DNA of 37,583 nucleotides from Helicobacteraceae bacterium (GTDB lineage: Bacteria > Campylobacterota > Campylobacteria > Campylobacterales > Sulfurimonadaceae), in assembly GCA_027023805.1 (NCBI GenBank), contig JALVUF010000026.1, positions 1 through 37,583 on the forward strand, in the 5' to 3' direction. The position numbers and the translations under genes are program-made. The notes beneath the pieces are model-generated. The model did no database searches and was not told the origin of the DNA. It was given only the letters and a program-made list of their open reading frames with translations. Below, one piece after another: positions 3,252-21,114 of the stretch; the stretch's first letter is position 1, and every line of letters begins with the position of its first letter.

Positions 3252-4211
3252 CTAATAATCTTTTTTATACATTTGTATCAAATCATCATCAATCTGATAT
3301 TTATTTGAAGCGATATAATTTATATCTACAAACTCAAACTCCGAATCTTTATAAACTATTACATCTTTACAAATCTCTTTTGATAAGATCCTGTCAATTG
3401 ACTTCTCTACAAATTGGCTGGCCATAAGTCTATCAAAAACAGTCGGATTGCCGCCTCTTTGTATATGCCCCAGCACTGTCGCTCTTGTCTCCATGCCTAT
3501 CTCATCTTCAAGCCACCGAACCATCTGCTGCGTCATATCCATGCCTTCTGCTACAACGCAGATGACATACCTGCGTCCTTTTTGAAGCTCTGTTAATATC
3601 TGCTTTTTTTGATGCTTTAAATCATAAGGCATCTCAGGTATAAGACAAAGCTCAGCGCCTGAAGTGATAGCTGAGACAAGAGCTAAATATCCACACTCTT
3701 TGCCCATGGTCTCAACGACAAAAGCCCGCTTAAACGATGCGGCGGTATCTCTGATGCTGTCGATTGAAGATCTTATGATGTTTAATGCCGTATCAACACC
3801 CAAACAATACTGTGTCCCGTAAATATCGTTATCTATAGTCGAGGGGATGCCCACAAACTTCAGATCAAATTCGCCGCAAAAGATATCCATGGCTCTAAAA
3901 GAACCGTCGCCGCCTAAGACTATGATTTTATCAATTCCCACTTTTGTGAGATTTGAAAATGCTGTTTGTCTGTACTGTTTGTCAAAAAAACGCTTAGACC
4001 TTGAAGAGCCGATAATAGTCCCGCCTAAATGGATAATACCCGATACATCAGTAAATGTTGCCTCTTTTATATTGCCGTCGATAAGACCCTCTAGTCCGTC
4101 ATATATGAAGTACGGCTTCAAACCGCTAAAGATAGAGCGCTCAACAAAATACTTAATAGCAGGATTCATACCTGCGCAATCACCGCCTGAAGACATAATA
4201 GCTATCGACAT
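3252..4211 (-). CDS. pfkA: 6-phosphofructokinase (ATP type)
   Basis: The protein (319 residues) has PfkA motifs in order: SGGDCAGMNPAIK, LGGTIIGSSR, GGDGSFRAM, GIPSTIDNDI (the Asp of TIDND is the catalytic base), VETMGKECGYLA and GHIQRGGNPT. GGDGS rather than GGDDS points to ATP and not pyrophosphate as donor. It commits fructose-6-phosphate to glycolysis. An in-frame TTG at 4217 abuts the AGGAG Shine-Dalgarno, so the ATG at 4211, six bases from AGGAG, is the better start. It is first in the operon. A TATAAT element and a 17-bp palindrome lie in its leader. PFK is absent from several well-known Campylobacterota such as Campylobacter jejuni, so its presence hints at real sugar or glycogen catabolism. 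Confidence 0.93.
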   Translation of the reverse strand: MSIAIMSSGGDCAGMNPAIKYFVERSIFSGLKPYFIYDGLEGLIDGNIKEATFTDVSGIIHLGGTIIGSSRSKRFFDKQYRQTAFSNLTKVGIDKIIVLGGDGSFRAMDIFCGEFDLKFVGIPSTIDNDIYGTQYCLGVDTALNIIRSSIDSIRDTAASFKRAFVVETMGKECGYLALVSAITSGAELCLIPEMPYDLKHQKKQILTELQKGRRYVICVVAEGMDMTQQMVRWLEDEIGMETRATVLGHIQRGGNPTVFDRLMASQFVEKSIDRILSKEICKDVIVYKDSEFEFVDINYIASNKYQIDDDLIQMYKKDY

Positions 4212-4245
4212 AAACAACTCCTAATAATAAATTTACAAAGAGATA

Positions 4246-4342: not shown

Positions 4343-4385
4343 AAAAAGTATTAAAATGCTTTTTAAAAAGCAAGGAGGCATAAAA

Positions 4386-5381
4386 ATGTTATATAAAGCG
4401 GGTGGTTTTTTAATCGTATTGTCTATTGTCTTCTTTGCGACTGGATGTGCAAAGTCTCAAGAGCAAAAGGAACTCTCCGTTAAAGACAACAGCGTTGATA
4501 TCCGTGTAGAGGGTGCCGTTTATCCGTTAAAGAAACAGACAATCATACCCTCCGTTACGGGCTATATAAATAATATTTATGTAAAAAATGGAGACAGAGT
4601 CAAAAAAGGCACTCTTATCTACACTATAAACAAACAGCCTCTGGCTCTTAGTATAAAAAGCCTGCAAACCCAAATAGCCGCTTTAAAAAATATCAGACGA
4701 CATATACTCTCAAGCCGCACGACAGACGGAAATATCTATGCGGTAAACATTGCAGCTAGAGAGCTTAAAAAAATAGCGCAGCTAAAAGCGCTAGGGTACG
4801 CAAACTCCTTTACACAAAACAAATACAAAAAAAATTATATCAATGCCATCTATTCAAACCGATTAGCAAGAGAAAATAGTTACAAAAATCTAAAAGATTT
4901 AGACACAAATATCAAAACCAAAGAGCTTGCACTGCAAAAACTCCAATTTCAATATAACCATGCTGATATGCGCGCACGAATAGATGGATTTGTAGCAGGC
5001 TTACATGTAAGCGTTGGCGAACAAGTTAGCGCAAACTCCAAACTAGGCGCTATTGTAAATATTGACAAAGTTATCGTAAAAGCGGGCTTTGCCACGGGAC
5101 TTTTACCATTTATCCATCTTCACCAAAGAGTTCATGCCGATTTCATAACTACGCCGCCATACGGCGCTACCGCTTATATATCACAAATCAACCCTGTGGT
5201 AAACCCAAAATATGGGAGAATGACAATAGAAATGATAATCAAAAATCACAATTATCAACTGCAAGAGGGCACAAGAGCACTAATTACCATTAAACTCTCC
5301 AAAAAAGGGCAAGCTGAGGTTAAAAAATATTTTTTAAACAACAAGCGCAATAAAATGCTTGAGATAAAATCTAAAATTTAA
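4386..5381 (+). CDS. HlyD/RND-type periplasmic adaptor lipoprotein
   Basis: This 331-residue protein has a lipoprotein signal (lipobox ATGC near residue 20), then a barrel-sandwich (lipoyl-like) half motif VTGYINNIYVKNGDRVKKGT, a helical hairpin of about 90 residues, the second lipoyl half ADMRARIDGFVAGLHVSVGE, and a C-terminal beta-barrel. That is the layout of membrane-fusion adaptors that join an inner-membrane pump to a TolC channel. No pump gene adjoins it. A TolC-family gene lies at the far end of the facing polysaccharide locus. The ATG at 4386 is chosen over one at 4356 because AAGGAGG (4372-4378) sits seven bases before it. It converges with the glycosidase gene, and the two stop codons overlap by two bases, so no terminator separates them. 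Confidence 0.82.
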   Translation: MLYKAGGFLIVLSIVFFATGCAKSQEQKELSVKDNSVDIRVEGAVYPLKKQTIIPSVTGYINNIYVKNGDRVKKGTLIYTINKQPLALSIKSLQTQIAALKNIRRHILSSRTTDGNIYAVNIAARELKKIAQLKALGYANSFTQNKYKKNYINAIYSNRLARENSYKNLKDLDTNIKTKELALQKLQFQYNHADMRARIDGFVAGLHVSVGEQVSANSKLGAIVNIDKVIVKAGFATGLLPFIHLHQRVHADFITTPPYGATAYISQINPVVNPKYGRMTIEMIIKNHNYQLQEGTRALITIKLSKKGQAEVKKYFLNNKRNKMLEIKSKI

Positions 5382-6805
5382 TTTTTATACAGATATACTC
5401 TTCCAAGAGGGAGATATTCTTTTGTGAATTGGTTTTGAATAAAATGCAGTTTAACGGTTAATCTTCTATTTCTATCTTTTAGCCATACCTTATTATACGC
5501 ATCGTATATATCTGTATTTTGCGGTAAAAATTTTGAAGAAATACTCAGATATACATCATGCTTGTAAGCTTTACATGTAAGAACAAAACCGTTTTTATAA
5601 AATCTTACATATCCGCCTATATTTTTAAGTATAAGATAACTTTTTCCGAGCACTCTGCCAAGCTTATAAAAATAGATATTATCACGCTCTAGTTTATGGT
5701 TTTGCGGCACCTCGGCATAAACCAAATTATTTGTTAATTTTGCCATAGCATAACTAAAATATATACCGTTTTTTGGCTTTGTCTCACGGTAAAGAAGTCC
5801 GCTGCTATAAACCTTTTTATAAACAGGAGCCAGATAGTTCATATATATAAAATTTTTAAAACCATATTTTTGATACTCTTTTTTGTAGTTGGTAAGCAGG
5901 TTTATAAAGGCAAGAGAATCGTTTAATATATGAGAATCATCATATATTGGGTAATAGTTTGTTATCTCTACGTTATTAACCCAGCCCACACCCTGCACCT
6001 GAATCTTTTTTTGAATTTGCTTTGTATCTGTGATATAGCTCTCAGTCATGTCATATGAGACAAAAGGAAGCAAATAGGCATGTTTTCTAAAAGCCTGATT
6101 GGTTACGACAAACACTCCTCTTTGCCTGAGAATTTTATAAAATTTTGCCACTAAAGAAAAGTAGTTTTTATGAGGATTTAATTGTTTAAAACGGGCAAAA
6201 ATAGACTTATACTCTTTTTGCAAAATATATCCCCCTGATGCCCAGTCAAAAAATACTCCGTTAAAACCTTTTTGTTTAATGGTATGGATTAAATTATCTA
6301 CTCTGTGTCTAAATACCTCTTTGTTACCAAGATTATAATAATAGTCTTTGCACCAGTCATAATGGTTCTCTTTACAGTGAATAAATGGGCCGTTTGGATT
6401 TAGTGTTGCAAACCTGCGGTGCTTATACAGCCACGACACAAAACCGCTGTTGCCCCCATCTGTGTAATAATAAAAAGCCGGCATCCAGTCATATGCGATA
6501 TGGCGCTTTATGGATAAAATCCCATCTTTTTTTAACCTCTTATATGTCAACTTATCATCATTGATGTCTCCGAGTTCCACGATACTAAACTTCTTTGCCC
6601 ATCTAATCGCACTCTCTCCCTCAAAGAGCGAAGATGTCGCATATCCGCCTTTTTGTTTTAATATAGTTAAATTTTTTGTGTTATCTATAATTTTGTATTG
6701 GTTTTTACCGACAATGTTAGCATGAAGATTATCGGCAAAACTACTTACATGTAAAAATGATAAAATCAGGAGATATTTAAACAATGAAGAGATATTTTTT
6801 GTCAT
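5378..6805 (-). CDS. Secreted TIM-barrel glycoside hydrolase-like protein (PelA hydrolase analogue?)
   Basis: The 475-residue protein starts with a signal peptide (KYLLILSFLHVSSFA). A GH114/PelA-hydrolase-like barrel pattern follows: RHIAYDWMPAFYYYTDGG, then KGFNGVFFDWASGGY with Asp187 at the end of a strand, VFVVTNQAF, and YDMTESY with Glu255. Asp187 and Glu255 are candidate catalytic acids. The C-terminal 130 residues look like a beta-domain with several Tyr and Lys. It would act in the periplasm or outside on the polymer made by this locus. It overlaps the flippase-like gene by ATGA and ends the operon. In canonical Pel, PelA carries both a hydrolase and a deacetylase; here the deacetylase is a separate gene. 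Family assignment is by motif pattern only. Confidence 0.6.
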   Translation of the reverse strand: MTKNISSLFKYLLILSFLHVSSFADNLHANIVGKNQYKIIDNTKNLTILKQKGGYATSSLFEGESAIRWAKKFSIVELGDINDDKLTYKRLKKDGILSIKRHIAYDWMPAFYYYTDGGNSGFVSWLYKHRRFATLNPNGPFIHCKENHYDWCKDYYYNLGNKEVFRHRVDNLIHTIKQKGFNGVFFDWASGGYILQKEYKSIFARFKQLNPHKNYFSLVAKFYKILRQRGVFVVTNQAFRKHAYLLPFVSYDMTESYITDTKQIQKKIQVQGVGWVNNVEITNYYPIYDDSHILNDSLAFINLLTNYKKEYQKYGFKNFIYMNYLAPVYKKVYSSGLLYRETKPKNGIYFSYAMAKLTNNLVYAEVPQNHKLERDNIYFYKLGRVLGKSYLILKNIGGYVRFYKNGFVLTCKAYKHDVYLSISSKFLPQNTDIYDAYNKVWLKDRNRRLTVKLHFIQNQFTKEYLPLGRVYLYKN

Positions 6806-7701
6806 TTAATAAGCTCCTTAAACTTAATATTTTTTACCAATAAAAATATATACAATAACACAAAATCAACAAAAAAAAGTAAAAAATGATATATCATAGC
6901 AGCGACTAATGCATCCTCCTTGCTTACTCCATGATGATGCAACAGCAACACGACAGCCCCCTCATATGTCCCAATGCCGGCGGGAGTAAGCGGAAGAGCC
7001 AAAGCAATGGTAGAAAAAATAAAAAGCTCGATGATATCTTGTAAATTAAGCCCGAAATGTACGGCATACTTATAAAAAAAGAGAGTATCCATAAAGTAGC
7101 TAAACCACACAAATAGTGTATATAAAAGGATATACCATGGACTCGTAAGAAGATGATTGATGTTGCTAAAGATCTTTTGAGAATATATACGCACACGCTT
7201 GAATGGAATCTTTTTTAAGAGCAGCAGTGTCTTTTTATATCTAAGCAGAGCTATAATAAGAGTGATAGAAATAATCAAACCCACAAGAGAATACTTAATA
7301 GCATCATTTGTAAAATAGTAATATGCCCATAAGCAAAGAAGTAAAAAAAGCACTATCGCATCAAAAAATCTCTCCACAAATATCACGGACACACTCTTAT
7401 GATAACCATACTTGTAAAATTTTTTCAGATACAGAGCTTTTGATAATTCACCGAGTCTAGCCGGCAAAATCATATTTAAAGCACTCGAGACGATGATCGT
7501 CTCAAGCGATATCTTAAAAGAGAGACTTGTCATCTGTGCCCATCTTAGACTAAGCATTATGTCACTAATTAACATAACAAAAATAGCTACAAAAATCCAA
7601 AAAAAGGAAAACTGTCCAAAATCTATACTGCTAAAACTAAATCCATGGAATATATAAACAACAATAGCAGATAAGACGGTTATTTGGATGATCTTATTCA
7701 T
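6802..7701 (-). CDS. UPF0104 / lysylphosphatidylglycerol synthase TM-region family (flippase-like)
   Basis: This 299-residue polytopic membrane protein has about eight hydrophobic segments. Family-like motifs are SLRWAQMTSLSF, SALNMILPARLGELSKALYL, SVSVIFVERFFDAIVL and the C-terminal LPLTPAGIGTYEGAVVLLL. This matches the UPF0104/AglD-like family, members of which are implicated in moving lipid-linked molecules across the inner membrane. The protein overlaps the deacetylase gene by eight bases and the glycosidase gene by four, so it is firmly in the operon. Together with the PelG-like protein it gives the locus two candidate lipid- or polymer-handling membrane proteins. Its substrate cannot be told from the sequence. 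Confidence 0.8.
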   Translation of the reverse strand: MNKIIQITVLSAIVVYIFHGFSFSSIDFGQFSFFWIFVAIFVMLISDIMLSLRWAQMTSLSFKISLETIIVSSALNMILPARLGELSKALYLKKFYKYGYHKSVSVIFVERFFDAIVLFLLLCLWAYYYFTNDAIKYSLVGLIISITLIIALLRYKKTLLLLKKIPFKRVRIYSQKIFSNINHLLTSPWYILLYTLFVWFSYFMDTLFFYKYAVHFGLNLQDIIELFIFSTIALALPLTPAGIGTYEGAVVLLLHHHGVSKEDALVAAMIYHFLLFFVDFVLLYIFLLVKNIKFKELIK

Positions 7702-8446
7702 GATTTAAAATACTCATCAATTTATCTTTGGTACGGCCTGTTGAATAAAAAGCAAGAATATAATCTATATTAAAAGAAGCATATTTTCTTAACAAAAATA
7801 ACATATTTCTATCTTCGAGCTCATAAGGATGTATGTAGATAATAGGATTTTTTGTATGCCTAAATAGTATCTTAAGTAACCATAAAGGTAAGACTCTTAG
7901 ATAAAACCCACCGCTAAAAGGGATAATATTCTTAGCAATAGGACGCTCTTGGATGACTCCTGATGATGTGTATATATTAAAATACTCTTTTTTATTTATA
8001 CTGTTACCGTACATGTAGTTTTTCATAGGAAAATATGAAGATGAATAAGAAAATCCAAGCTTTGCCAATTCTGTGTAATATATTTTATCAAAAGGCATAG
8101 ACCAACTAGGACTTCTATACCCATAAACACATTTGTCGGTTATCTTTTGTAGTAACTCCTTAGCCCTAACAAGTTCATCTCTCCATTGCTCTAAGCTCTG
8201 TTTATATACCAATGTATGGCTGTATCCGTGACATGCTATCTCCACGCCATTATCTGATAATTTTCTAACAAGTTCGGGATATTTGTTTGCAAAACTCCCA
8301 AGAACAAAAGCAGTCGCCTTGCGGTCTTTGACAAACTTGATAAATGTGTCAATTCGCTGTTCATAATCTATAGCCGGAGATTTTTTCCATTTGATATTAA
8401 AATTCATATCAGTTATCTCCTCGACATCAATCGTAAGCCAAATCAT
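7694..8446 (-). CDS. Polysaccharide deacetylase, NodB fold (XrtA/DUF3473-like)
   Basis: With the start chosen here the protein is 250 residues. NodB motifs in order: LTIDVEE (Asp7 and acidic partners), HGYSH (His73 and His77, metal ligands), YGYRSPSWS (Arg111) and IYIHPYEL (His206). This pattern, together with SGGFYLRVLPLWLL, resembles the deacetylases of exosortase/XrtA exopolysaccharide loci. It should remove N-acetyl groups from polymer or precursor. An ATG 69 bases upstream (8515) is open, but the ATG at 8446 overlaps the preceding stop as ATGA and begins just before motif 1, so it is preferred. No signal peptide is visible, suggesting cytoplasmic action or an undetected export route. Confidence 0.88.
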   Translation of the reverse strand: MIWLTIDVEEITDMNFNIKWKKSPAIDYEQRIDTFIKFVKDRKATAFVLGSFANKYPELVRKLSDNGVEIACHGYSHTLVYKQSLEQWRDELVRAKELLQKITDKCVYGYRSPSWSMPFDKIYYTELAKLGFSYSSSYFPMKNYMYGNSINKKEYFNIYTSSGVIQERPIAKNIIPFSGGFYLRVLPLWLLKILFRHTKNPIIYIHPYELEDRNMLFLLRKYASFNIDYILAFYSTGRTKDKLMSILNHE

Positions 8447-9372
8447 AGATCTATCAAATATCTGCAAAGTTTCGGACCGATGTAATCCACCACACTCTTT
8501 GGCAATTTTTTCCATATCTTTGACGCCAAGGCATATTTGGAGTATATATCCTCTTTTTCAGAAGATATTGTATCTATCTTGACGGGATATGCTCCAAAGT
8601 GAATCTTATAATTATAAGTACCGCCTTTAAATGGTGAACGTCCAAAATCATATATTTTTATATTTTTGTAATTATCACAAAGAAGTTTTATGATTTCCCA
8701 ATCTGCAAAATATCCTGCATTTTTATCTCTATAGTACATATCCACTCCTCCCCAAGCTGCCCAAGCTATCTCTTTATCAAGTAAAATGCAAGATGATGCA
8801 ATAATTTTTTTTTCATCATACGTATTGCAAAATATTATATTATCTTCAAATTCTTCTGCTAGATAGATAAAAAATCTTTTATCTATCACTGGAGTCCCAT
8901 GCATACACATCGTATTTGAAAAAATAGTATAAAAGTCATCTATATCTTTTTTACTATTACCATAAGAAAAAGTGAAATTGTTTTTATTTGACTTTCTGAT
9001 ACTCTTTCTGCACATTCTTTTTACGGAAGTTTTAAATACTTCATCACTAGATCTATTTTGTATATCTATACGCATTGTCACCGTATCATCTGGTAAAAAA
9101 TCGGTATATGTAAAGTCTAAAACCCTTATCTGATACTTATTTCCTTTTGCAAGTTCCAAAAGATCCTCGACTTGATCGTGCTTTTTGTCAGTATAGTTCA
9201 TAAAAGGTAAGTAACTTAATGTTTTTTTACCAAGCAACGAGGGAACAATCAAAAAATCCATATACTCTTCATAACCGTACAGTTTTTTAACTACGGCTTT
9301 GAATTTTGTTATAAAATCATGTGATAGAACAATTTCTTCATCTCTTGCTTTACTGTTTACATCTTTTTGCAT
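8443..9372 (-). CDS. FemAB/GNAT-like transferase (Acetyltransf_6 type)
   Basis: The 309-residue protein has the N-terminal FGF-poor half and the GNAT-like second half typical of FemAB-related proteins in exopolysaccharide loci: VKRMCRKSIRKSNKNN, FYTIFSNTMCMHGTPV, AAWGGVDMYYRDKNAGYFADWE and YDFGRSPFKGGTYNYKIHFG. The family transfers an acyl or aminoacyl group to an amino group of sugar or peptidoglycan precursors. Placed next to the NodB deacetylase it could re-acylate or aminoacylate the amines exposed by that enzyme, which is inference. A GTG at 9375 directly precedes the ATG at 9372; ATG is chosen, though the ribosome site is weak. It overlaps the DUF2304 gene by 23 bases. Confidence 0.75.
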   Translation of the reverse strand: MQKDVNSKARDEEIVLSHDFITKFKAVVKKLYGYEEYMDFLIVPSLLGKKTLSYLPFMNYTDKKHDQVEDLLELAKGNKYQIRVLDFTYTDFLPDDTVTMRIDIQNRSSDEVFKTSVKRMCRKSIRKSNKNNFTFSYGNSKKDIDDFYTIFSNTMCMHGTPVIDKRFFIYLAEEFEDNIIFCNTYDEKKIIASSCILLDKEIAWAAWGGVDMYYRDKNAGYFADWEIIKLLCDNYKNIKIYDFGRSPFKGGTYNYKIHFGAYPVKIDTISSEKEDIYSKYALASKIWKKLPKSVVDYIGPKLCRYLIDL

Positions 9373-9682
9373 CACGTTTCGCCTGCTCCCTTATGATCTT
9401 TGTAATAGTTACGTTGTTATTTTTAAATCCTATATACAAAACTATGTTTACTAAAGCCGTTAACGGCACAACGATGTATATTATCAGCCTTGCCCCACTT
9501 TGGATCGAAAAAAAACTGGCAATATAGTCAGCATATTTCGGATAGGCGATAAATAGAAAAAGTATTAGATAACCACCGATAACGCTTACTTTTTGAAGAA
9601 CTTTTAATCGCGATGAAAATGCAAAAATGAAAAAAGCACTTGTTAAAATAAGAAGTAAAAAAAGCTTAACTATAATAATCAT
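9350..9682 (-). CDS. DUF2304 small membrane protein
   Basis: This 110-residue protein has three hydrophobic segments (about residues 2-22, 32-50 and 64-86), then a basic tail ending in KRDAKRCKQ. Size, layout and position directly after a dolichol-phosphate-mannose-synthase-like GT2 fit DUF2304, a family commonly found beside such glycosyltransferases. Its presumed role is anchoring the GT2 or helping the lipid-linked sugar across the membrane, by analogy with GtrA partners. It starts by an ATGA overlap with the GT2 stop. No biochemical function is established. Confidence 0.75.
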   Translation of the reverse strand: MIIIVKLFLLLILTSAFFIFAFSSRLKVLQKVSVIGGYLILFLFIAYPKYADYIASFFSIQSGARLIIYIVVPLTALVNIVLYIGFKNNNVTITKIIREQAKRDAKRCKQ

Positions 9683-10368
9683 TTTATCATGTTTCCAATC
9701 AAGTAATCTATCACTATATTAATACTGTTCCACATAGACTGCCCCTTACTAAGACTATACTCGGTATAACGTATATTGCAGGGCATCTCTACGTGGCGCA
9801 TCTTTAAATTTTTGATGATACTGATGATCTCGGAGGCATGTGCCATCCTGTTTTGCGTGATCTCAAAATGGGGAAATTTACCAAGATTAAATGCCCGCAA
9901 TCCATTATGAGAATCAGTAAGCCACAAACCGGTGCTCATCCACGTAAAAACCCTTGAGAGTTTCAAAAGGTATTTTTTTTTAACAGGCATATTTTCAGTT
10001 TTACCCAAAAACCTTGAACCTAAAACTATATCTGCTCTGTTTTCATGCAAAACTTCTACAAATGGTGCAATATCACCAGGGTCATGTTGTCCATCAGAGT
10101 CAAACATAACGACATATTTACAGTCAAGCTTTTTTGCAAATTCGATACCGGTCTGCAAAGCTGCTCCCTGTCCAAGATTAACCATATGCTTCAATATATA
10201 AACACCGCCCAAGCATGCCGCCTCATAACTCTTATCGGTTGAGCAGTCATCCACTACAATGATTTTGTATTCGCTGTATTTTTCTCTTAACTCTTGCAAA
10301 ACCTTACCTACAACCATCTCTTCATTATAAAGAGGAACAACTATCGCTACGCAAGCATCTTTACTCAT
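9679..10368 (-). CDS. Family 2 glycosyltransferase (polyprenol-phosphate sugar synthase-like)
   Basis: The 229-residue GT-A protein has IVVPLYNEE at the N-terminus, VVDDCSTD (Asp40/Asp41), NLGQGAALQTGI and MFDSDGQHDP (DxD at Asp90 and Asp92), then SRFLGK. It lacks long membrane segments. This is the DPM1/GtrB-like pattern that makes polyprenyl-phosphate sugar from a nucleotide sugar on the inner face of the membrane. The next gene encodes a DUF2304 membrane partner, and the gene two upstream encodes a GT-C-like protein that could use the lipid-linked sugar. It overlaps both neighbours by ATGA. The sugar transferred is unknown. Confidence 0.9.
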   Translation of the reverse strand: MSKDACVAIVVPLYNEEMVVGKVLQELREKYSEYKIIVVDDCSTDKSYEAACLGGVYILKHMVNLGQGAALQTGIEFAKKLDCKYVVMFDSDGQHDPGDIAPFVEVLHENRADIVLGSRFLGKTENMPVKKKYLLKLSRVFTWMSTGLWLTDSHNGLRAFNLGKFPHFEITQNRMAHASEIISIIKNLKMRHVEMPCNIRYTEYSLSKGQSMWNSINIVIDYLIGNMIK

Positions 10369-11867
10369 TTTTTCTCCTCAAACGCACTAGATGTAATCTT
10401 TGCAATTTTTATTTTTATCGATTGCTCTACATCCAAAAAAGCATCAACTACAGCTTTGCCAAACATTTTATTAGAAGCTTTTTTTATCTCTAAAACAGCC
10501 TCTTTGTGAGTTTTGCCTTTTTTGTATGACCTAGCACCCGTAATGCCCGAATAAAACTCACCCACTGCAACCACTTGAGCTTCTATAGGAATCTGCGCAC
10601 CTTTAAGCCCAAACGGGTAGCCTTTTGCGTCAAATCTCTCATGATGGTATTTGATAATATCGGATATCGGATAGATATGACAAATCGGCTCCACTATAAT
10701 ACTCCCAATTAGCGGATGCTCTTTTATAAGATCCATATCTTTTATCTCTAGCTTATCTTTGTTTAAAAGTGCTAGCAAATCACCAATCATGCCAATATCA
10801 TGAAAAGATGCACCCATAGCAATCGCATCAATCTGCTCCTGCGATAAAAAAAGTGATTTTGCCACTTCCACTGAGATAGTTTTAACTATAAGAGAATGAT
10901 TTTTATAATACACATTCTCCAACTCTACAGCTTGATTGGTAAACTCCAGCAGTTTCAAATAATTTTGAACCATTTCGCTGTTTTTATTCAAATTTACCAA
11001 AAAACTGCCTGCCATATCTAAAAATGACCCGACTTGAGCCATTGTTTCACTCTTTAAAGGTTTATCGTCATAAAATTCAAGCTTAAAAGGAGTGTTTCTT
11101 ATAAAAAATATCTTTTGAAGTGGCGACTCTGTTAGGTGTTGAAAAACAGGCTTATCATCTTTGGTAAGAAGCTTAGCTCCTTTGGCTTTTGTAATTTTTA
11201 GTATTAATGCCGTAAAAAATTTGAAAAATTCATCTTGATCCATCTGCAGTTTCATAAGTGAAATTGAAGTGTCTTTGCTCACATTTAAAAGAGCTTCTCC
11301 ACTTTTTGATTTAAAACCAATTACACTTTGTTCGTAAAATCCAAGCATTATCTCGAAAAAACCACTATATGCTCTAAATTTAACATTAGGTTTTAAGTAA
11401 AAAAGCATAAGCATATCTTTTGAACTGCTAGTAAAATACTCTATAACGTAATTTCCACTTTTTTTAAATCTGATAAGCTCTTTTTTTGCCAGTCTAAGCG
11501 GTGTGGCAATATCTTTTACATTGTTTGTATTTGATTCTACAAGAATATATGTTTCACCCCTAAGGGCATATAAGGCGGCGTATTTTGCGCCCACAAGGGC
11601 AATGCTCTTTAATAAGGAAAGCTCAATATCTCTAATCTCTTTCTTGCTGCTTAAATCTTTAAAAAAATCATCAAAGATCTGAGCTTGATACTTAAGGCTT
11701 ATACTTTTTCTAAAAGATTTTAATGCCATAATAAACAAGACTGCTACAAAGATAACAAAAATCCACCAAATATTGCTAAAAAAATGATTTACCGCAGCTA
11801 AATCAGACGTTAGTTCACTGGGCAATACATAGTTAAAAAAATATCTGCTTTGCTCAAAAATCCCCAT
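10365..11867 (-). CDS. Membrane-anchored GAF-like/HD-GYP protein (possible c-di-GMP component)
   Basis: The protein (500 residues) has a hydrophobic segment at about 33-50, two GAF-like regions (about 60-190 and 200-295) and a C-terminal HD-GYP domain. HD-GYP features are His324, HD at 356-357, His384, HHE at 408-410 and GYP at 416-418. Deviations are HDIGM instead of HDIGK, HERFDAKGYP instead of DGxGYP, and VAVGEF with Glu437 where VADxxD normally supplies a metal-binding Asp. The family hydrolyses cyclic di-GMP; the changes leave activity open, and binding only is possible. Canonical Pel uses PelD, a membrane GAF plus degenerate GGDEF receptor of c-di-GMP, and this protein occupies a comparable place. 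It overlaps the GT-C-like gene by 14 bases. Confidence 0.82.
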   Translation of the reverse strand: MGIFEQSRYFFNYVLPSELTSDLAAVNHFFSNIWWIFVIFVAVLFIMALKSFRKSISLKYQAQIFDDFFKDLSSKKEIRDIELSLLKSIALVGAKYAALYALRGETYILVESNTNNVKDIATPLRLAKKELIRFKKSGNYVIEYFTSSSKDMLMLFYLKPNVKFRAYSGFFEIMLGFYEQSVIGFKSKSGEALLNVSKDTSISLMKLQMDQDEFFKFFTALILKITKAKGAKLLTKDDKPVFQHLTESPLQKIFFIRNTPFKLEFYDDKPLKSETMAQVGSFLDMAGSFLVNLNKNSEMVQNYLKLLEFTNQAVELENVYYKNHSLIVKTISVEVAKSLFLSQEQIDAIAMGASFHDIGMIGDLLALLNKDKLEIKDMDLIKEHPLIGSIIVEPICHIYPISDIIKYHHERFDAKGYPFGLKGAQIPIEAQVVAVGEFYSGITGARSYKKGKTHKEAVLEIKKASNKMFGKAVVDAFLDVEQSIKIKIAKITSSAFEEKK

Positions 11868-14031: not shown

Positions 14032-14035
14032 TACC

Positions 14036-15403
14036 TTACTCTTTAATGGCCATAAACTCTACTCTTCTATTTTTTGCTCTGCCTTTTGGTGTGCTGTTTG
14101 TTGCTATTGGGTACAGTTTGCCATGCCCCTCTGTCTGTATCTGATTTGGATTAACTCCCATTTTAACCAATGCGTTCTTGACAGCTTTTGCTCGTTTTAC
14201 TGACAAAGTTTTATTGTATCGCTGAGAACCTATATCATCAGTGTAGCCGCTGATTTGTACAATAACTCTTTTATTACGTTTTAAATACCTAGCTATCGGC
14301 TGTAAGCGCATTAAACTCTTTGCGGTTAAGGCATAAGACTTATATGCAAAATCCAAATTACTCAACACAACCTTTTTATGATGATTAAATTTATCTAAAA
14401 TATTTTGGCTTGTAACATTTGTATCAAGTTTTGTTTGAATCACTTTAAACTTGCTGCCTGTCTGCGGTGATACAGTTTTTTTATCATACATTCTCTCTAG
14501 CAAAAAATAAAGAAGCCTCCATCTTAACAGCTCCCCGTCATATCTTGTGTTTTGAAACTCAAAAGGATATAAAAACACAACTCCCCCCTTACCATATCTT
14601 ATAAATGATACTAAAGGCTTTTTATTTTGCCCTGTTAAAAGGTACTCGCCGCGGGGCATAAAATCTGCCTGCAGATAATTGTCCGTTTTTATTTCAAGAT
14701 TTTTTATATCACTAAAATAAGACAGAGTGCTTGCTGTTTTAAATCTGATTTTCATAGGAGTATAGTTGATAAAATCTATCTTTTTACTCTTATAGATTGT
14801 AGTATGGACTTTAGAGTCAAAAAAGTATAGGTTTTTACTTTTTTGTAGAAGTTTTTTCTTTATGGCTCTTTGATTTATCTCTCCATTTTTCTTGAATGTA
14901 TCATATCTAGTTGAGTAGATACCGCCCTCAATCCAAAGTATTCCCCCTTGCCCTATCCACCATTTGAGTATCTCCTGCTCTTTTGATGAAAGATTGTAAC
15001 TGTAACCTATATCTTCAAAAAGATTATTAGATACTTTTTTAAATCTATTTGCCCAAGTCGGCAAAACATATATAAAATCCAAATAAAAAGGATTTGTCCT
15101 TAGCTTCCAAAAATCAACATCTTTAAGTGATGCAAATTTGTATCTATAATCCAGTTTATCGTAAAACTGATTTGAAAATTTACCTTTAAAATCTATGATA
15201 GGCGTATTTGAGACAAAAGGAAAACCCCTTAAGAGTTTTCTGCCGTTATTGACATTGGCAAAAATATTATTTACGCCAATATCATAGACCAAAACCGACT
15301 CAGGCGATAAAATCCTTTTTTGTAACAAAACATCATTGTTGCTAGTTGCGCATCCGCTGATAATAAAGGCTAAAACAATCAAGCTTAAAATGTATTTTTT
15401 CAC
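14036..15403 (-). CDS. Lipoprotein with GATase-like domain and C-terminal OmpA domain
   Basis: The 455-residue protein starts with a lipoprotein signal ending ISGC (Cys18). The middle has a flavodoxin/GATase-like look: YVLPTWANRF, EQEILKWWIGQGGILWIEGG, RYGKGGVVFLYPFEF, reminiscent of DUF4159/DUF4350-type folds. Residues about 350-455 form an OmpA-like peptidoglycan-binding domain (SGYTDDIGSQRYN, LSVKRAKAV, GHGKLYPIATN, AKNRRVEF). It is probably anchored in the outer membrane and touches the cell wall, perhaps as a scaffold for polymer export in place of PelC. The start is GTG with AAAGGA seven bases upstream; that AAAGGA abuts the end of the MITE-like repeat. The GATase-like assignment is tentative and the OmpA domain is clear. 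Confidence 0.75.
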   Translation of the reverse strand: MKKYILSLIVLAFIISGCATSNNDVLLQKRILSPESVLVYDIGVNNIFANVNNGRKLLRGFPFVSNTPIIDFKGKFSNQFYDKLDYRYKFASLKDVDFWKLRTNPFYLDFIYVLPTWANRFKKVSNNLFEDIGYSYNLSSKEQEILKWWIGQGGILWIEGGIYSTRYDTFKKNGEINQRAIKKKLLQKSKNLYFFDSKVHTTIYKSKKIDFINYTPMKIRFKTASTLSYFSDIKNLEIKTDNYLQADFMPRGEYLLTGQNKKPLVSFIRYGKGGVVFLYPFEFQNTRYDGELLRWRLLYFLLERMYDKKTVSPQTGSKFKVIQTKLDTNVTSQNILDKFNHHKKVVLSNLDFAYKSYALTAKSLMRLQPIARYLKRNKRVIVQISGYTDDIGSQRYNKTLSVKRAKAVKNALVKMGVNPNQIQTEGHGKLYPIATNSTPKGRAKNRRVEFMAIKE

Positions 15404-15412
15404 AACAAATCC

Positions 15413-15687
15413 TTTAAGTACCTATCCAAAAATAAAACCAACTAACAGCGATAAGTAAAAGGTGCAGATACAAGGCAGATTTTTGCAGGGCTAGCCGTAG
15501 CTAATTCAATAAAATCTAACGAAGCAGATGCACTTTTTGCATATCGCCCGTAGGGAGTTTTAAAATAATACCTATTACTGCGTTAAAAACTCTTGAAGCT
15601 ACTAGTAGCTCCTGCCTGTTTTTGCCTTGTACTAGGCATTATTTTAAAGCTCTGTTAGTTGGTCTTATTTCTGGATAGGTACTTAAA
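15413..15687. mobile_element. MITE-like palindromic element with 36-bp terminal inverted repeats
   Basis: Bases 15413-15448 and 15652-15687 are inverted repeats matching at 34 of 36 positions, both starting TTTAAGTACCTATCCA and ending ACCAACTAACAG. The interior is also largely self-complementary: ACAAGGCA..GCAGG..GTAGCT near the left matches its complement near the right, and TTTAAAATAATACCTA pairs with a copy near 15633-15648. There is no ORF of size inside. TTAA at each end could be a target duplication or part of the repeat. The right end overlaps the pelG stop (TAA) and the left end touches the ribosome site of the lipoprotein gene. It fills the 279-bp gap between those genes; nothing else is seen there. 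Confidence 0.75.
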
Positions 15688-17263
15688 ATGACGAATAATA
15701 ATAAAATTCCAGTTTTTTTAACATATTTGTAGTATAGCTAAAACTATACCACCAAAACACTACACTCCCCGCAAATAATCCAAAAACTGCATACTGCAGT
15801 CCAAATATTCTGCTTAAAATCAATCCAACTAAAATATTGACAACTGTTGCTATTAAAATTGATTTAACGGCAAGCCCCTGTCTTGAGAATGAAAAAATAA
15901 ATAGTGCATTCATAAGCCCATTTACCATAAAAGCATATGAAACAGCCGCAATCCAGTAAACAAAAGGGGTAAAACTGTTAAAAAAATTCTTAATAAAGAG
16001 ATAATCCGTATTTTTATAAATATAATATATAATATAATATACAAGAAATATAATAATTATCGACAAGATAAGATATATCGTATTGAATTGTTTAAAAAAC
16101 AGATGTATCTTTTTATTAAACAGCTCATACTCTTTATACTTATATTTTACGACCATGTCATTAATGCGGTACATAAATTCATGAATACTGATCTCCGTAA
16201 AACCCATCAGTAAAACAAGAGCAATCAGTGCCCAGTCCAGACCGACTTCGTAAGGTACGTTAAACCAGATAAAATATGGTTTTGCAGGCACGTTGGCACT
16301 CCAGGCCACGATCCTATCAGTCACTAAAAAGATAAAGAAAAAAAGACCATAAAGATAAAACGGCATCAAGGAATAAAACAACATTGACATCCTGGGTGCT
16401 ACTTCCCCCTCTGAAGCCGTATCGTTTTTTTTAAGATTATATATCTTCTTATATACAAAAAAAGCAAGTACTCCATCTAGCGCAACCAAAGCCATAAATT
16501 GCGCCTCAGGAAGCCTTACATGTAAAAGGCTATGCGTTATATATACAAATACCATGCCTGCTAAAAAATAATATAGTATTTTAAGATACTCCTCAAACAT
16601 ATAATAAACAGAGATTGATAAAAATAAAAAAGAAAGCAGCAGATAAAACATAATCAAAATAAAAAAATAATATGCAGGTAGTACCTCAAAAAAAAGATTA
16701 AACAATATTAAAACAACTCCAACAACCAACACTATAACAAAGCCTATGATAAGCAGCAACTTAGTCACATTTGCAGCTAATGTCATCTCCTGCTGCTTTA
16801 GATAAAAAAGACCCTTTCTGCCTATCGCCTGAGCAGATGTTCCAGTCATTATAAGGGCTAAAAATGTACCGATTGCAATCACTGTGGCTTTTGTTTGATC
16901 CAAATTGATGCCCGACCATATCGCATACCCGATGGAGAGTGTAAAAAATATCTGAACAAACATGGGCATGGCAAATGCCAAGCCTCTTATATAGTTTTTA
17001 AATATACGCTTGCCCAGAGGGGGCAGCTCTTCCCATGTGTTAAGGGACTTAACGGGATACTCTTTGACCTCTTTGTACCTATGCATATATTTTGCCATAT
17101 CAAAGACATTATCAAAGCCAAACTCTTTTTGCGCGTCTATATCTCTGATACCATATATCTCCAAAAGTGCCGCTATCTCCCAAAAATCTAGCGGTTTTCC
17201 TCTGTCTTTTGTTATCTCTAAGTACAGAGGTTCGAGGTTATTACCATTATCTTCCTCTTGCAC
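15683..17263 (-). CDS. pelG: PelG-like polysaccharide transporter with N-terminal cytosolic extension
   Basis: The 526-residue protein has a charged soluble N-terminus of about 95 residues (EIAALLEIYGIRDIDAQKEF), then about 12 hydrophobic segments in a Wzx/MATE-like arrangement, with GTSAQAIGRKGLFYLKQQ after the second. The stop lies in the MITE-like repeat. PelG is the usual inner-membrane partner of PelF, and the 17-base overlap with pelF supports that assignment, but sequence likeness to classic PelG is weak, so the name is tentative. The start is GTG with AAGG about eight bases upstream and no in-frame ATG close by. It would pass the PelF product across the inner membrane. Confidence 0.55.
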   Translation of the reverse strand: MQEEDNGNNLEPLYLEITKDRGKPLDFWEIAALLEIYGIRDIDAQKEFGFDNVFDMAKYMHRYKEVKEYPVKSLNTWEELPPLGKRIFKNYIRGLAFAMPMFVQIFFTLSIGYAIWSGINLDQTKATVIAIGTFLALIMTGTSAQAIGRKGLFYLKQQEMTLAANVTKLLLIIGFVIVLVVGVVLILFNLFFEVLPAYYFFILIMFYLLLSFLFLSISVYYMFEEYLKILYYFLAGMVFVYITHSLLHVRLPEAQFMALVALDGVLAFFVYKKIYNLKKNDTASEGEVAPRMSMLFYSLMPFYLYGLFFFIFLVTDRIVAWSANVPAKPYFIWFNVPYEVGLDWALIALVLLMGFTEISIHEFMYRINDMVVKYKYKEYELFNKKIHLFFKQFNTIYLILSIIIIFLVYYIIYYIYKNTDYLFIKNFFNSFTPFVYWIAAVSYAFMVNGLMNALFIFSFSRQGLAVKSILIATVVNILVGLILSRIFGLQYAVFGLFAGSVVFWWYSFSYTTNMLKKLEFYYYSSF

Positions 17264-18749
17264 TTATAGCCCTTTCTTGCAAAACTTCATTATACATATC
17301 TTTATATGTTTTGGCATAATTATCAACCATATCTTCTATAGTAAAGCCATTAAGCACCCTTTGCCTTGCATCTGCTCCCATATCACTAGCAATATCCGGA
17401 TTTTTTAAGATATACATAACTTTATCGGCAAACTCTTGATAATCTTTAGGTTTTATAACATAGCCATAGCCTTCAAGCACCTCTTTGGTCCCGCCCACAT
17501 CTGATGAGATAACAACACACTCACATGCCATAGCTTCCAAGACTACAAACGGAAAAGCTTCAGAAATACTTGTTAACATAACAACATCACCCTCATTATA
17601 GGCGCTCTCAGGACTGCTTGTAAGCCCTGCAAAAGTAAAATTGCCCTCTATGCCCAACTTCGCTACCAAAGCTTCGCATTCTTTAAAATATTTTTTCTCA
17701 TTAACCGGACCATACAGCTTAAACAGCACATCAGGCATCTCTTTTGATACAAGTTCGGCAGTTTTTATATATGTTTGTATATCTTTTAGCGGGTCTATCC
17801 TTGCAACCATAACAACAGTCGGTCTGTTTTGTTCTTTTTTAACCTCAAACTTTCTAAACTTATTTACATCTATGCCGTTATAAATAGTATCTATTTTTGC
17901 TTCATCAACGCCCCACTTTGTCTCCCATCTTGCGTTATAGTTACAAACCGGAGAGACGATATCCGCAAAATGAAAATTTAATTTTGAAACCAGTGTTATC
18001 AACCCCATTAAAAACTCTTTGGTTCTGTATGGCATCTGCGCTCTTGATGCGGCTAGATACTGCTCTCTTACATAAACACCGTGCTCTGTCAGCAAAAATT
18101 TACTGCCAAACTTTTTTTTCGCGATTATACATGGCAAGCCACAAAAAGCCGCGGCAGATGAGTGATATATATGTGCATCAGGAAGTGTCGGAAGCATTGA
18201 GATAAAAAACCTGTACAGATATCTAAGCCCTTCTATCATATCAAAGACTGTCGGTATATCATCATTTTCATCTTTATAATGTTGTAAAATATATTTTTTA
18301 TAGATATGCCACAGTTTTTCATTTCTAAAAGTTTCATAATAATCATAAATATGAAAATACTCATAAAACTCATACAGCGCATCACCGACTGCGTCTAAAT
18401 CTTCTTTTTTTCGGTATATATGATCTAGTATTAAAATCATGATGGAATTAAGCACATCAAGACTGTCATTTTCACTTGTTTTAAGTTTAGACTCATAAAT
18501 CTTGGCAAATGCAATCTGTCTTATATATTCTATGGGTTCTTCTGTACCCCAAAGAGGAGTATTAATGATATCTGTTACATTTGGCGGGATATCAAATTTA
18601 AGTTTTACATATGGATGCATCTGAATGGGAATAAGCACAAAATCGATATTTTTAAGCTCATGCATAAGTATATCCGCCCATGTGCTAACTCCGCCTGTAA
18701 CGTAAGGATATGTTCCCTCTCCCGTCCACACAACTTTAATACGACTCAT
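17247..18749 (-). CDS. pelF: PelF-type GT4 glycosyltransferase
   Basis: The 500-residue protein begins with the DUF3492/PelF signature EGTYPYVTGGVSTW (about 11-24), followed by HIYHSSAAAFCGLPC, FLLTEHGVYVREQYL, IYNGIDVNKF, MVARIDPLKDI and the GT4 acidic pair EAFPFVVLE (Glu397 and Glu405). PelF is the soluble polymerase of Pel polysaccharide, using UDP-GalNAc or UDP-GlcNAc at the inner membrane in Pseudomonas. The sugar here is unknown. An ATG with AAAAGG upstream overlaps the TolC-type gene by 14 bases, and the end overlaps the pelG-like gene. This is the best evidence that the locus makes a Pel-related polymer. Confidence 0.92.
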   Translation of the reverse strand: MSRIKVVWTGEGTYPYVTGGVSTWADILMHELKNIDFVLIPIQMHPYVKLKFDIPPNVTDIINTPLWGTEEPIEYIRQIAFAKIYESKLKTSENDSLDVLNSIMILILDHIYRKKEDLDAVGDALYEFYEYFHIYDYYETFRNEKLWHIYKKYILQHYKDENDDIPTVFDMIEGLRYLYRFFISMLPTLPDAHIYHSSAAAFCGLPCIIAKKKFGSKFLLTEHGVYVREQYLAASRAQMPYRTKEFLMGLITLVSKLNFHFADIVSPVCNYNARWETKWGVDEAKIDTIYNGIDVNKFRKFEVKKEQNRPTVVMVARIDPLKDIQTYIKTAELVSKEMPDVLFKLYGPVNEKKYFKECEALVAKLGIEGNFTFAGLTSSPESAYNEGDVVMLTSISEAFPFVVLEAMACECVVISSDVGGTKEVLEGYGYVIKPKDYQEFADKVMYILKNPDIASDMGADARQRVLNGFTIEDMVDNYAKTYKDMYNEVLQERAISARGR

Positions 18750-20391
18750 AAAAACCTTTTGTCTCTCCTGTGAGTGAGCTCAGTATTGCCATCTCTTTTA
18801 TATAGGTTTGCTGCAGTGATAACAGTTGTAATTTGTATCTTAAAAAACTCGCAACAGCGTTTGCATATACTCTATAAGGTAAAACCCCTTGAAGAAAATT
18901 TGCGCGTGTTACTCTCATCTTTAGCGCCTGCAAAGATACTTGATCTTGAGTTATTAACATCTGTTTCTTTATCATTTTGAGATTGTTGTAGGAATGATCT
19001 ACCTGCAGCAGTATATTTTTTATTTTTGATGAAAGAACCCCTTTCTGCTTTAGTGCGTCATATATGCTTTTTTGCTCACCTAGACGTATATCTCCTTTAT
19101 TGTAAATTGGCAAATTAACAGTTAACCCTAGCTGCCAAAAGACCCCTGTGCCTGCACTGTTTACCATAAATATATTATTATTACTAGCCCCGTAACCAGC
19201 GTATGAAGTAAAGCGAACTGTTGGATAATATCTTCGTTTTTGAGAAATCATATCCGTTTGTCTAAGTTTAAATATATTTGACTCTATGGCAATAGCGCTA
19301 TTGTTTCGTATAGCCTCTTTTTTAAAAGTATTTAACGATTTTAACTTCCAATCAATCTTAACAGGTAATAGTTTATATCTATTTTTAGCTCCTGAGTTTA
19401 TACTGTGTCTTAATATATAATCGTCATCTACAAATCTGGTTTTAAGATTTAAGATATTGCTTTTTAGACTCAAAAGCGAGCTTTTGGCATCTATATACTC
19501 AACGATAGAATTTGTTGATTTTTTATACCTCTGTTTTACAATTAAAGTTATATGTTGTTGTGTTTTATATATCTTTTTAAATAAAGTCAGCCTCTGCTGA
19601 TCAAAGTACATATTTGCATATATGGAAGTAGCCAAAATAGTTAGTTTTTCTTTTGAGTTTAGTTGCTTTATATCTGCCAATCTTTGATTTAAGACGGCAT
19701 ACTGGTTGTGTATAAGTCCATATTGCCCATCATAGAGCAATTTATCTGCATGTATTGAGACACCTGCACTGGTCTGATCATAATTACCGTTAATAATAGG
19801 CGGGGTTGAAGAATATGGAGACAAATATGAGCCGGTAGTTGCCTGCGCTGTTGCATATACATTAAAATTGTATCTGTCTTTTTTGATATATGTCAAAATA
19901 TAATCTATCTTTTTTTGATAAAAATTTATATCTGTCTGGTTGCTGGATTTAAGCAAAGTATTTATATACCTTCTAAAACTCAAAATATCATAATCAATAT
20001 TTGCGTCACTAAAGCCGGGCATCGGCATCTGATATGAGCGCAAAAGTTTTGGCTCGTTTAAAGACGGTATTTTATTGTTTTTAAAATCAGCGCTATGTGT
20101 TGTGAGAGTTTTGGGTTTTTTAAAGGCGCAGTTGACTATAAATGCAGAGTTATAATATTTTTTAACATCAGTTAGTTTTTTATCGGCATTTTTATAAGTA
20201 TCAAATCCCCGAAGTTTAAAAACATAATATCTGTTTTCTTTTTTAACTATACCTGAGGGGTATCTGTTTAAAAATAGATTTTTGTATGTTTTATTTAATG
20301 ACTTTGAAGATGAAGCTATAATGCAAAACTGACTTGCATATACAGCTTGTGAGACTAAAAGCGACAATAAAATAAATATAGTAAACTTCAT
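18736..20391 (-). CDS. TolC-family outer-membrane protein with SPOR-like N-terminal domain
   Basis: The 551-residue protein has a signal peptide (FILLSLLVSQAVYA), then a 70-residue SPOR-like domain (residues about 21-95, with YYVFKLRGFDTYKNADKKL), and then a TolC/OEP region with long coiled helices (two repeats, about 160-340 and 350-545), a proline/glycine beta segment (GSYLSPYSSTPPI) and NLPIYNKGDIRLGEQ. TolC proteins form outer-membrane and periplasmic exit ducts. It is first in the polysaccharide operon with GAGG before the ATG, so it is a candidate replacement for the PelB porin. The SPOR-like fusion is unusual and resembles the N-terminus of the pilus TPR protein at 25010-26146. Confidence 0.82.
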   Translation of the reverse strand: MKFTIFILLSLLVSQAVYASQFCIIASSSKSLNKTYKNLFLNRYPSGIVKKENRYYVFKLRGFDTYKNADKKLTDVKKYYNSAFIVNCAFKKPKTLTTHSADFKNNKIPSLNEPKLLRSYQMPMPGFSDANIDYDILSFRRYINTLLKSSNQTDINFYQKKIDYILTYIKKDRYNFNVYATAQATTGSYLSPYSSTPPIINGNYDQTSAGVSIHADKLLYDGQYGLIHNQYAVLNQRLADIKQLNSKEKLTILATSIYANMYFDQQRLTLFKKIYKTQQHITLIVKQRYKKSTNSIVEYIDAKSSLLSLKSNILNLKTRFVDDDYILRHSINSGAKNRYKLLPVKIDWKLKSLNTFKKEAIRNNSAIAIESNIFKLRQTDMISQKRRYYPTVRFTSYAGYGASNNNIFMVNSAGTGVFWQLGLTVNLPIYNKGDIRLGEQKSIYDALKQKGVLSSKIKNILLQVDHSYNNLKMIKKQMLITQDQVSLQALKMRVTRANFLQGVLPYRVYANAVASFLRYKLQLLSLQQTYIKEMAILSSLTGETKGFYESY

Positions 20392-20479: not shown

Positions 20480-21055
20480 TTAAAACGCCCACCAATACAA
20501 ATACGTAGCAGAATTAACCGTAGCATTTGTTGTTGTTGGATAAGCAACATTGTCTTGGATGGTACCTGTATTATAAATGTCATCATCATATTTTCTGTCT
20601 AATTCCTGTACAACGTCATTTGGTATAGGATATGTTGTAACCATGGTGCCTGATTGACCATTTCGATTATTATAGTAAAAATTATAATAACCACCGTATG
20701 GGGAGTGTTTTGCAACAGTTGTCAATGTTGTTCCATTTACATTTCCTGAGATAAAACCTGATGCAATCAAATCTTTCCATGCACAAAGCTCTTCCGCACC
20801 TCCTTGTATCAAGCCATTGCCATTACCCGTACAACCGCCGCTACCTGGAATAGGATTTGGATCATCTCCCGGCAAATAACCATATTTATTTTGAAAATCA
20901 TAAACCGCAGCTACAATGCCATGAACATCAGATGCCACTCTGTTTACTTTTGCCTGCTCTATCATCGCGCGACCTTTTAAAACAGTACCTATCAAAAGTC
21001 CTATAATGACAAGAGCTATTGCCAATTCTATCAATGTAAAGCCATTTCTTTTCAT
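20480..21055 (-). CDS. Type IV prepilin, probable major pilin (MshA-like)
   Basis: This 191-residue prepilin has leader MKRNG cut before FTLIELAIALVIIG; Glu5 of the mature protein is present. A hydrophobic helix follows, then AKVNRVASDVHGIVAAVYDFQNKYGYLPGD, typical of MSHA/PulG-like pilins. Two Cys (in GGCTGN and ELCAWKD) could form a disulfide. The C-terminus is aromatic (YLYWWAF). It sits last in the pilus cluster but has its own near-consensus promoter in the 59-bp gap upstream and an inverted repeat downstream, as expected for an abundant subunit. AAAGGA precedes the ATG. No prepilin peptidase is in the window. Confidence 0.85.
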   Translation of the reverse strand: MKRNGFTLIELAIALVIIGLLIGTVLKGRAMIEQAKVNRVASDVHGIVAAVYDFQNKYGYLPGDDPNPIPGSGGCTGNGNGLIQGGAEELCAWKDLIASGFISGNVNGTTLTTVAKHSPYGGYYNFYYNNRNGQSGTMVTTYPIPNDVVQELDRKYDDDIYNTGTIQDNVAYPTTTNATVNSATYLYWWAF

Positions 21056-21081
21056 CTTTTTTCCTTTTTACAGTTTTGTAT

Positions 21082-21110: not shown

Positions 21111-21114
21111 GAAT

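Follow-up and report, generated by a model that had tools for sequence, protein, structure and literature searches.

A conserved PelF-PelG locus with TolC- and HlyD-type partners suggests undescribed polysaccharide secretion in Campylobacterota

Gene content of the locus

The window analysed here is a 37,583-nucleotide contig (C26; JALVUF010000026.1) of a Helicobacteraceae bacterium whose genome (G000) measures 1.64 Mb and is 99.96% complete. On its minus strand, at 5378-20391, lies a series of twelve genes that includes pelF and that an initial annotation had read as a variant Pel-type polysaccharide locus with partners from other families. Checking of the coordinates confirmed twelve long open reading frames that mostly overlap, with gaps of only 4 bp (14032-14035) and 279 bp (15404-15682). 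The gene set is not a chance assembly, since its core recurs in every relative whose contig extends far enough. The twelve genes stood as annotated, while one member had been omitted, the gene of an HlyD/RND-type lipoprotein adaptor on the plus strand (4356-5381). The extended set, 5378-20391 (-) together with 4356-5381 (+), is confirmed as one locus conserved across Campylobacterota.

The core gene order is TolC-PelF-PelG-lipoprotein-GT-C-HD-GYP. A TolC-family outer-membrane protein with an N-terminal SPOR-like domain at residues 20-90 (18736-20391; OEP, 9e-21) precedes PelF, a GT4 glycosyltransferase of a divergent clade (17247-18749; NF038011, DUF3492), and a PelG-like MOP-family exporter with an extra N-terminal domain at about residues 1-95 (15683-17263; PF16933). 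There follow a lipoprotein that joins a conserved N-terminal core (about residues 50-305) to an OmpA peptidoglycan-binding tail (14036-15403; OmpA, 3e-24), a 725-aa membrane glycosyltransferase of predicted GT-C fold, the signature gene of the system (11854-14031), and a membrane-anchored HD-GYP protein (10365-11867; HD_5, 5e-20).

Near the core lie HlyD and an accessory set, GT2-DUF2304-FemAB-NodB-flippase. These genes encode a GT2 glycosyltransferase of the polyprenyl-phosphate-sugar synthase type (9679-10368; NF058614, 1.3e-60), an adjoining DUF2304 membrane protein (9350-9682; PF10066, 1.5e-7), a FemAB/GNAT-like transferase (8443-9375; Acetyltransf_6, PF13480, 3e-8), a NodB/CE4-type polysaccharide deacetylase with DUF3473 (7694-8515; PF01522, 1e-16; PF11959, 2e-12) and an LPG_synthase_TM/flippase-like membrane protein (6802-7701; PF03706, 3e-37). 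The last minus-strand gene, for a secreted PelA-hydrolase-like protein (5378-6805), is convergent with and overlaps by 4 bp the gene of the periplasmic HlyD adaptor (GCAKS lipobox; HlyD_D23, 1e-15). Pfam verified all the family names first proposed for TolC/OEP, the OmpA domain of the lipoprotein, HD_5, GT2, DUF2304, Acetyltransf_6/FemAB, the deacetylase and LPG_synthase_TM.

The PelF-PelG core

In the roles known for their families, PelF polymerises and PelG translocates, and the two are known as a synthase-dependent pair. The window PelF scored 179 bits against the curated NCBIfam PelF model (NF038011, cut-off 100) and matched Pfam DUF3492 at 8e-39, which bears out its identification; it is the single PelF of the genome. 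In a maximum likelihood tree of 61 rows, all 23 window-type PelFs formed one clade (100/99) that joined the PelF of Deinococcus, Streptomyces, Thermus and Kocuria (Deinococcota/Actinomycetota) and was set apart from canonical PelF of Campylobacterota, Caballeronia and Pseudoalteromonas (100/100), with long branches that call for caution on the exact sister group.

The transporter that follows PelF matched the PelG model PF16933 weakly in the window (E 0.0027, below cut-off), and 14 of its 24 aligned relatives matched the model (best 2e-9), in support of the PelG-like assignment. The columns invariant across the 24 sequences fall nearly all within the N-terminal domain, where the residues invariant also in the Deinococcus, Streptomyces, Thermus and Kocuria homologues are located. 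Residues of about 25-60 of this domain carry the pattern EIAALLExxGIxD...FGFxxVFxxAK, which is present in Deinococcota and Actinomycetota homologues too and was not seen in canonical PelG. A separate PelF-PelG pair, on a Sulfitobacter indolifex plasmid (L086, 4810-10885), lies next to an OPX-type polysaccharide biosynthesis/export protein in place of PelB/PelC and is possibly another candidate export swap for the PelFG core.

Conservation among Campylobacterota

We searched 150 related genomes for PelF with PF11997. Matches came from 38 genomes in two distinct score classes, 28 of them with canonical pel and ten, including G000, in the window's class. The seven canonical neighbourhoods read were PelC-D-E-F-G-A loci, mostly with PelB. 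PelD_GGDEF matched 27 of the 28 canonical genomes, the 28th having a PelD homologue by blastp; the profile search for PelD matched none of the ten window-class genomes. TolC-PelF-PelG-lipoprotein-GT-C is common to all window-class loci wherever the contig extends that far.

An alignment scan for the GT-C protein across an 84,980-species genome collection, which relies on exact matches to short patterns and would overlook remote homologues, returned 28 loci, all from Campylobacterota (Sulfurimonas, Nitratiruptor, Sulfuricurvum and other metagenome-assembled genomes, MAGs). Isolate names and genera suggest hydrothermal, deep-sea or sediment settings for some of them. The five-gene order was kept in 18 of the 18 PelF-containing loci, with HD-GYP in 13 and HlyD in the 12 reaching it. 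In Sulfurimonas-like loci the accessory GT2-DUF2304-FemAB-flippase-NodB set runs on the same strand, in Nitratiruptor-like loci on the opposite one, and it is linked in both; in two genomes (G070, G428) most of it is absent from the locus.

A GT-C profile matched 11 of the 150 genomes, namely the ten window-class genomes and G034, an 80% complete genome whose contig ends inside PelG. A profile of the HlyD subfamily at E 1e-25 matched precisely the same 11. This co-occurrence goes beyond physical linkage, as the adaptor of G070 sits on a separate contig from the locus. If the two were independent, the chance of an exact 11-in-150 match would be about 7e-17, a figure weakened by kinship; the genomes span 8 of 54 genera. 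The neighbours are conserved with pelF in relatives, the partners being kept with this PelF lineage and absent from canonical-pel genomes. The idea that the two pel types exclude each other was weighed and dropped, as the number of genomes with both (none seen, about 1.9 expected by chance) does not differ significantly from expectation.

Canonical Pel components

Genome searches of G000 found no PelD, bifunctional PelA or PelB outside the locus. A Campylobacterota PelB query matched G004 and G008 and had no match in G000, G070, G107 or G138. For PelC and PelE, hhalign of the window-class families gave only short N-terminal lipobox alignments, no genome-wide search having been made for these two. 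When each window-class family was compared by hhalign with canonical PelA-G, only PelF-PelF and a weak hydrolase-PelA match were obtained, the other weak PelC matches being short N-terminal signal/lipobox alignments. The claim that PelA to PelE of usual form are missing thus held for PelB, PelC, PelD and PelE and only in part for PelA; the bifunctional protein is absent, and a stand-alone PelA-like hydrolase and a deacetylase are encoded by separate genes.

These comparisons bear on whether the locus is a fast-evolving canonical Pel operon, in which TolC, lipoprotein, GT-C and HD-GYP would be unrecognised PelB, PelC, PelE and PelD. Its overall logic is the same and some roles run parallel (an outer-membrane lipoprotein, a membrane-anchored c-di-GMP-type protein), but the profile matches stop at PelF and the hydrolase and the 725-aa protein has a predicted GT-C fold, and we regard this origin as highly improbable. 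Canonical parts hidden by divergence were ruled out by the profile-profile comparison and genome searches. Separately, G070 carries a canonical PelA fragment (C24:30961-32478; query residues 8-518) without PelD or a second PelF, possibly what is left of a pel operon that was displaced, or else the result of a break in the assembly.

TolC, the adaptor and the lipoprotein

TolC and the periplasmic adaptor occur together in the locus, and these loci showed no conserved gene for an ABC, RND or MFS pump, which leaves PelG or the GT-C protein as candidates for the inner-membrane partner of the adaptor. Annotation of the outer-membrane protein as TolC-SPOR was upheld for TolC; its SPOR domain falls below Pfam detection in the window and is SPOR-like by family profile, the profile of the TolC N-termini matching Pfam-validated SPOR repeats of sister lipoproteins. 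Among relatives, the lipoprotein ends in an OmpA domain, a single SPOR, four SPOR repeats or no tail domain, and the N-terminal SPOR-like domain of TolC occurs only where the lipoprotein is without SPOR. That the domain is on one or the other and never on both supports the view that the two proteins act jointly. For the lipoprotein core, Pfam scans over 19 family members gave only weak unrelated matches, and the hits of a structure search were taken up by the OmpA tail.

A PelF-PelG polymer might instead be secreted via the lipoprotein or an unlinked secretin, with TolC-HlyD as a co-located efflux or accessory unit. TolC and membrane fusion proteins have many other jobs, and G428 carries the core without HlyD on its contig. 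This arrangement nevertheless seems unlikely, given that TolC lies directly upstream of PelF in every locus reaching it, that the HlyD subfamily is restricted to these genomes even where unlinked, and that the SPOR domain shifts between TolC and lipoprotein.

The GT-C protein and lipid-linked sugars

The 725-aa protein had no Pfam or NCBIfam match, and hmmsearch of its family against Protein Data Bank (PDB) sequences returned nothing; its fold was therefore taken from structure prediction. The AlphaFold2 model (pLDDT 85.6, pTM 0.88) matched STT3/oligosaccharyltransferase (OST), PglB, ArnT, DPY19 and AftA in the PDB (Foldseek 2.8e-5). It aligned to STT3 7oci_F with a VIA Z of 19.4 over 439 residues (rmsd 7.3) and to ArnT with a VIA Z of 17.7 over 432 residues (rmsd 5.9). 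The predicted structure thus has the GT-C (STT3/PglB/ArnT) fold, as had been guessed for this membrane protein. Asp-185, kept in at least 90% of 26 alignment rows and placed in the loop that follows helix 1 of the GT-C part, is a candidate for the acidic residue expected in the first periplasmic loop of GT-C enzymes. Several GT-C copies can occur at one locus, three in L059 (7783-15771) and two in L057 (6511-10544), and G107 (L045, 4420-9010) has two near-identical, frame-broken copies.

GT-C fold enzymes use polyprenyl-linked sugars. The nearest model of the GT2 protein is PpgS, a polyprenyl-P-GalNAc synthase (NF058614; 204.6 bits against a cut-off of 370), and the GT2 protein also resembles dolichol-P-mannose synthase structures. 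A PAP2-family phosphatase adjoins the locus in Sulfurimonas-like MAGs (L051, 13741-14364; L053, 3473-4105), which fits polyprenyl-phosphate recycling. Compared with most relatives, the NodB deacetylase has about 20 additional N-terminal residues, and no signal peptide is evident by eye. The FemAB-like protein scored 111.6 bits against pepcterm_femAB (cut-off 260) and the deacetylase 137.8 bits against the XrtA model (cut-off 276). No exosortase (PF09721) was found in G000, and an exosortase-linked exopolysaccharide (EPS) locus was rejected; the suggestion that some families were exosortase-linked came down to resemblance.

The same genes could serve lipid-linked glycan synthesis or protein glycosylation, PelF and GT2 building a polyprenyl-linked glycan that a Wzx-like PelG would flip and an OST-like GT-C would transfer to protein or lipid, with TolC/HlyD exporting something else. 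The closest folds are the STT3/PglB oligosaccharyltransferases, the GT2, DUF2304 and flippase genes form a lipid-linked sugar route, and a type IV pilus-like cluster adjoins the locus in the window. OST chemistry does not follow from the fold, however, as the single-sugar-donor enzymes ArnT and DPY19 reach almost the same scores (Z 17). The loci showed no initiating phosphoglycosyltransferase, relatives do not keep the pilus cluster beside the locus, PelF/PelG are a synthase-dependent pair, and TolC, HlyD and matrix-type hydrolases fit export. We consider glycosylation an improbable role, though the least improbable of the alternatives weighed here.

The hydrolase and the HD-GYP protein

Annotation of 5378-6805 as a secreted hydrolase held and could be made more specific, since the protein is PelA-hydrolase-like. 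Its family aligned to the canonical PelA hydrolase domain with an hhalign probability of 55%, and in this profile comparison D187 and E255 fell on the Asp in FFDTLDS and the Glu in ESY. In chain 5TCB the PelA pair is found at positions 135 and 193, which correspond to D160/E218 by an offset of 25 derived by counting. D160/E218 is the pair mutated to inactivate PaPelA (PMC12022489), and the inactivating E218 mutation is also found in PMC9894940. By alignment, the hydrolase keeps the catalytic Asp/Glu pair of PelA. A GH114 match reached only E 0.11, and hmmsearch of the family against PDB sequences gave nothing.

The hydrolase gene is confined to the window's subgroup, apart from some Nitratiruptor MAGs in which it is paired with a solo GT-C gene. 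In three Nitratiruptor-like loci (L065, L066 and L102, about 6195-12118), a second, stand-alone pair of a hydrolase homologue (~30% identical) and a GT-C gene sits between housekeeping genes, which suggests a two-gene functional unit. Sister loci without the hydrolase gene have spherulin-4 (5e-47 to 2e-30) or GH114 (1e-9) beside TolC, and GH114 also adjoins the sister PelFs of Deinococcus, Streptomyces and Kocuria. Hydrolases of the PelA-like, GH114 or spherulin-4 type fit an alpha-1,4-galactosamine-type polymer.

The HD-GYP protein matched structure 4mcw at 2e-29, and its HD, HHER-D-GYP and Glu columns are invariant in 14 relatives. As the last Asp of the metal site is replaced by an invariant Glu (E437), the protein could act as an enzyme or as a receptor.

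Surroundings of the locus

Directly upstream, at 20480-31654 (-), lies the type IV pilus/MSHA-like cluster, with two prepilins, T2SSF, T2SSE, a TPR protein, a secretin, further small membrane proteins and a methyl-accepting protein. It was ruled out as part of the system, not being adjacent to the locus in relatives. The second prepilin-like protein (23991-25013, -) has a long (GGS)n repeat near its C-terminus, a low-complexity tail unusual for a pilin. On the other side, a phosphoglycerate kinase, alpha-glucan phosphorylase and 6-phosphofructokinase cluster (350-4217, -) lies beside the locus, and a McrBC-type restriction pair occupies 34899-37497 (-).

Discussion

The locus combines a conserved, co-occurring gene set, a separate PelF clade, a GT-C fold, retained catalytic residues and no recognisable PelB, PelC, PelD or PelE. 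The idea of a variant Pel-type system with partners from other families is supported, in that PelA, PelB and PelD were not found elsewhere in G000 and the neighbours were conserved with pelF. Judged from the sequences, the locus probably comprises a PelF-PelG synthase core, a TolC-HlyD conduit, a lipid-linked decorating module and an HD-GYP regulator, and the gene set suggests that a biofilm sugar is made and secreted by an undescribed route.

For this preferred reading we infer the substrate, the sequence in which the steps occur, the coupling of PelG to HlyD and TolC, and how the system is regulated. PelF would polymerise an amino sugar, probably of the N-acetylgalactosamine type, in the cytoplasm, and PelG would move the chain through the inner membrane. 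Well-studied Gram-negative Pel systems export via PelB/PelC; here the lipid-anchored HlyD-type adaptor and TolC would take their place as the exit through periplasm and outer membrane, fixed to peptidoglycan by the OmpA/SPOR lipoprotein and the SPOR domain. The GT2-DUF2304 pair would produce a polyprenyl-phosphate sugar, which NodB and FemAB may modify and the LPG_synthase_TM protein may flip, and the GT-C protein would attach it, on the periplasmic side, to the polymer or to the acceptor of the polymer. A PelA-hydrolase-like, GH114 or spherulin-4 enzyme would trim the chain, and the HD-GYP protein may stand in for PelD as the control point for cyclic di-GMP (c-di-GMP).

Several points weigh against this scheme. 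Besides its Pfam score below cut-off, the window PelG gave no match in direct profile comparison with canonical PelG, and the hydrolase-PelA link has just the 55% given by hhalign. In two genomes (L038, L101) the locus is without the accessory sugar module, and no HlyD was seen on the 13 kb contig of L101. The co-occurrence counts include no correction for kinship, in other systems TolC and HlyD carry proteins and drugs, and PelF specificity is not readable from sequence, which makes the sugar assignment putative.

Compared with canonical Pel (pelABCDEFG of Pseudomonas aeruginosa), the locus shares PelF, a putative PelG-family exporter, a PelA-type hydrolase domain that keeps the D160/E218 pair by alignment, a separate deacetylase, a lipoprotein and a protein of the cyclic-dinucleotide type. 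It differs in having TolC and HlyD in place of PelB, PelC, PelD and PelE, in the added GT-C and lipid-linked sugar genes, in its separate PelF clade and in the extra N-terminal domain of PelG. The Gram-positive pelDEA(DA)FG operon of Bacillus cereus shares the PelF/PelG core and has a modification enzyme reduced or split relative to bifunctional PelA; it retains PelD and PelE but lacks outer-membrane components, whereas the window locus has neither PelD nor PelE (PMC7112168). PelF-PelG loci of Deinococcus, Streptomyces, Thermus and Kocuria share the sister PelF clade, the PelG N-terminal domain and GH114 and/or spherulin-4, but have no TolC, HlyD, GT-C, lipoprotein or HD-GYP in the stretches read. 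XrtA/exosortase EPS loci have relatives of the FemAB-like protein and the DUF3473 deacetylase, but the window proteins score about half of the curated cut-offs and G000 has no exosortase.

For the proposed PelF-TolC export, the nearest published idea is a model of cyanobacterial cellulose export, XcsAB-TolC (Maeda et al. 2018, here after the review PMC12430437), which the review calls experimentally unvalidated. As presented there, a polysaccharide synthase is joined to TolC via an HlyD-like adaptor; the synthase is a cellulose synthase instead of PelF/PelG, and TolC lies outside the operon. Rearranged loci and loci with PelFG only were described in a survey of pel operons from 2020, whose main text is without TolC, Campylobacter or Epsilonproteobacteria (PMC7112194), and the Gram-positive Pel paper does not mention TolC (PMC7112168). 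In the open-access literature searched we found nothing on such a locus, on PelF with Sulfurimonas or on Pel polysaccharide with Campylobacterota, and an earlier mention elsewhere is possible.

More tentatively, and at somewhat less than even odds in our judgement, the locus represents a new class of polysaccharide secretion, so far in Campylobacterota only, in which PelF-PelG would feed a peptidoglycan-anchored TolC-HlyD conduit and an OST-like GT-C would add lipid-linked sugars in passage. If true, an operon that swaps PelB/PelC for TolC and an HlyD-type adaptor would mark the PelF-PelG core as a movable synthase module. It would provide an operon-encoded test case for TolC conduits that export polysaccharide, a question raised for cyanobacterial cellulose (PMC12430437). 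The locus would also join Pel-type synthesis to lipid-linked sugar transfer and may offer a c-di-GMP input other than PelD.

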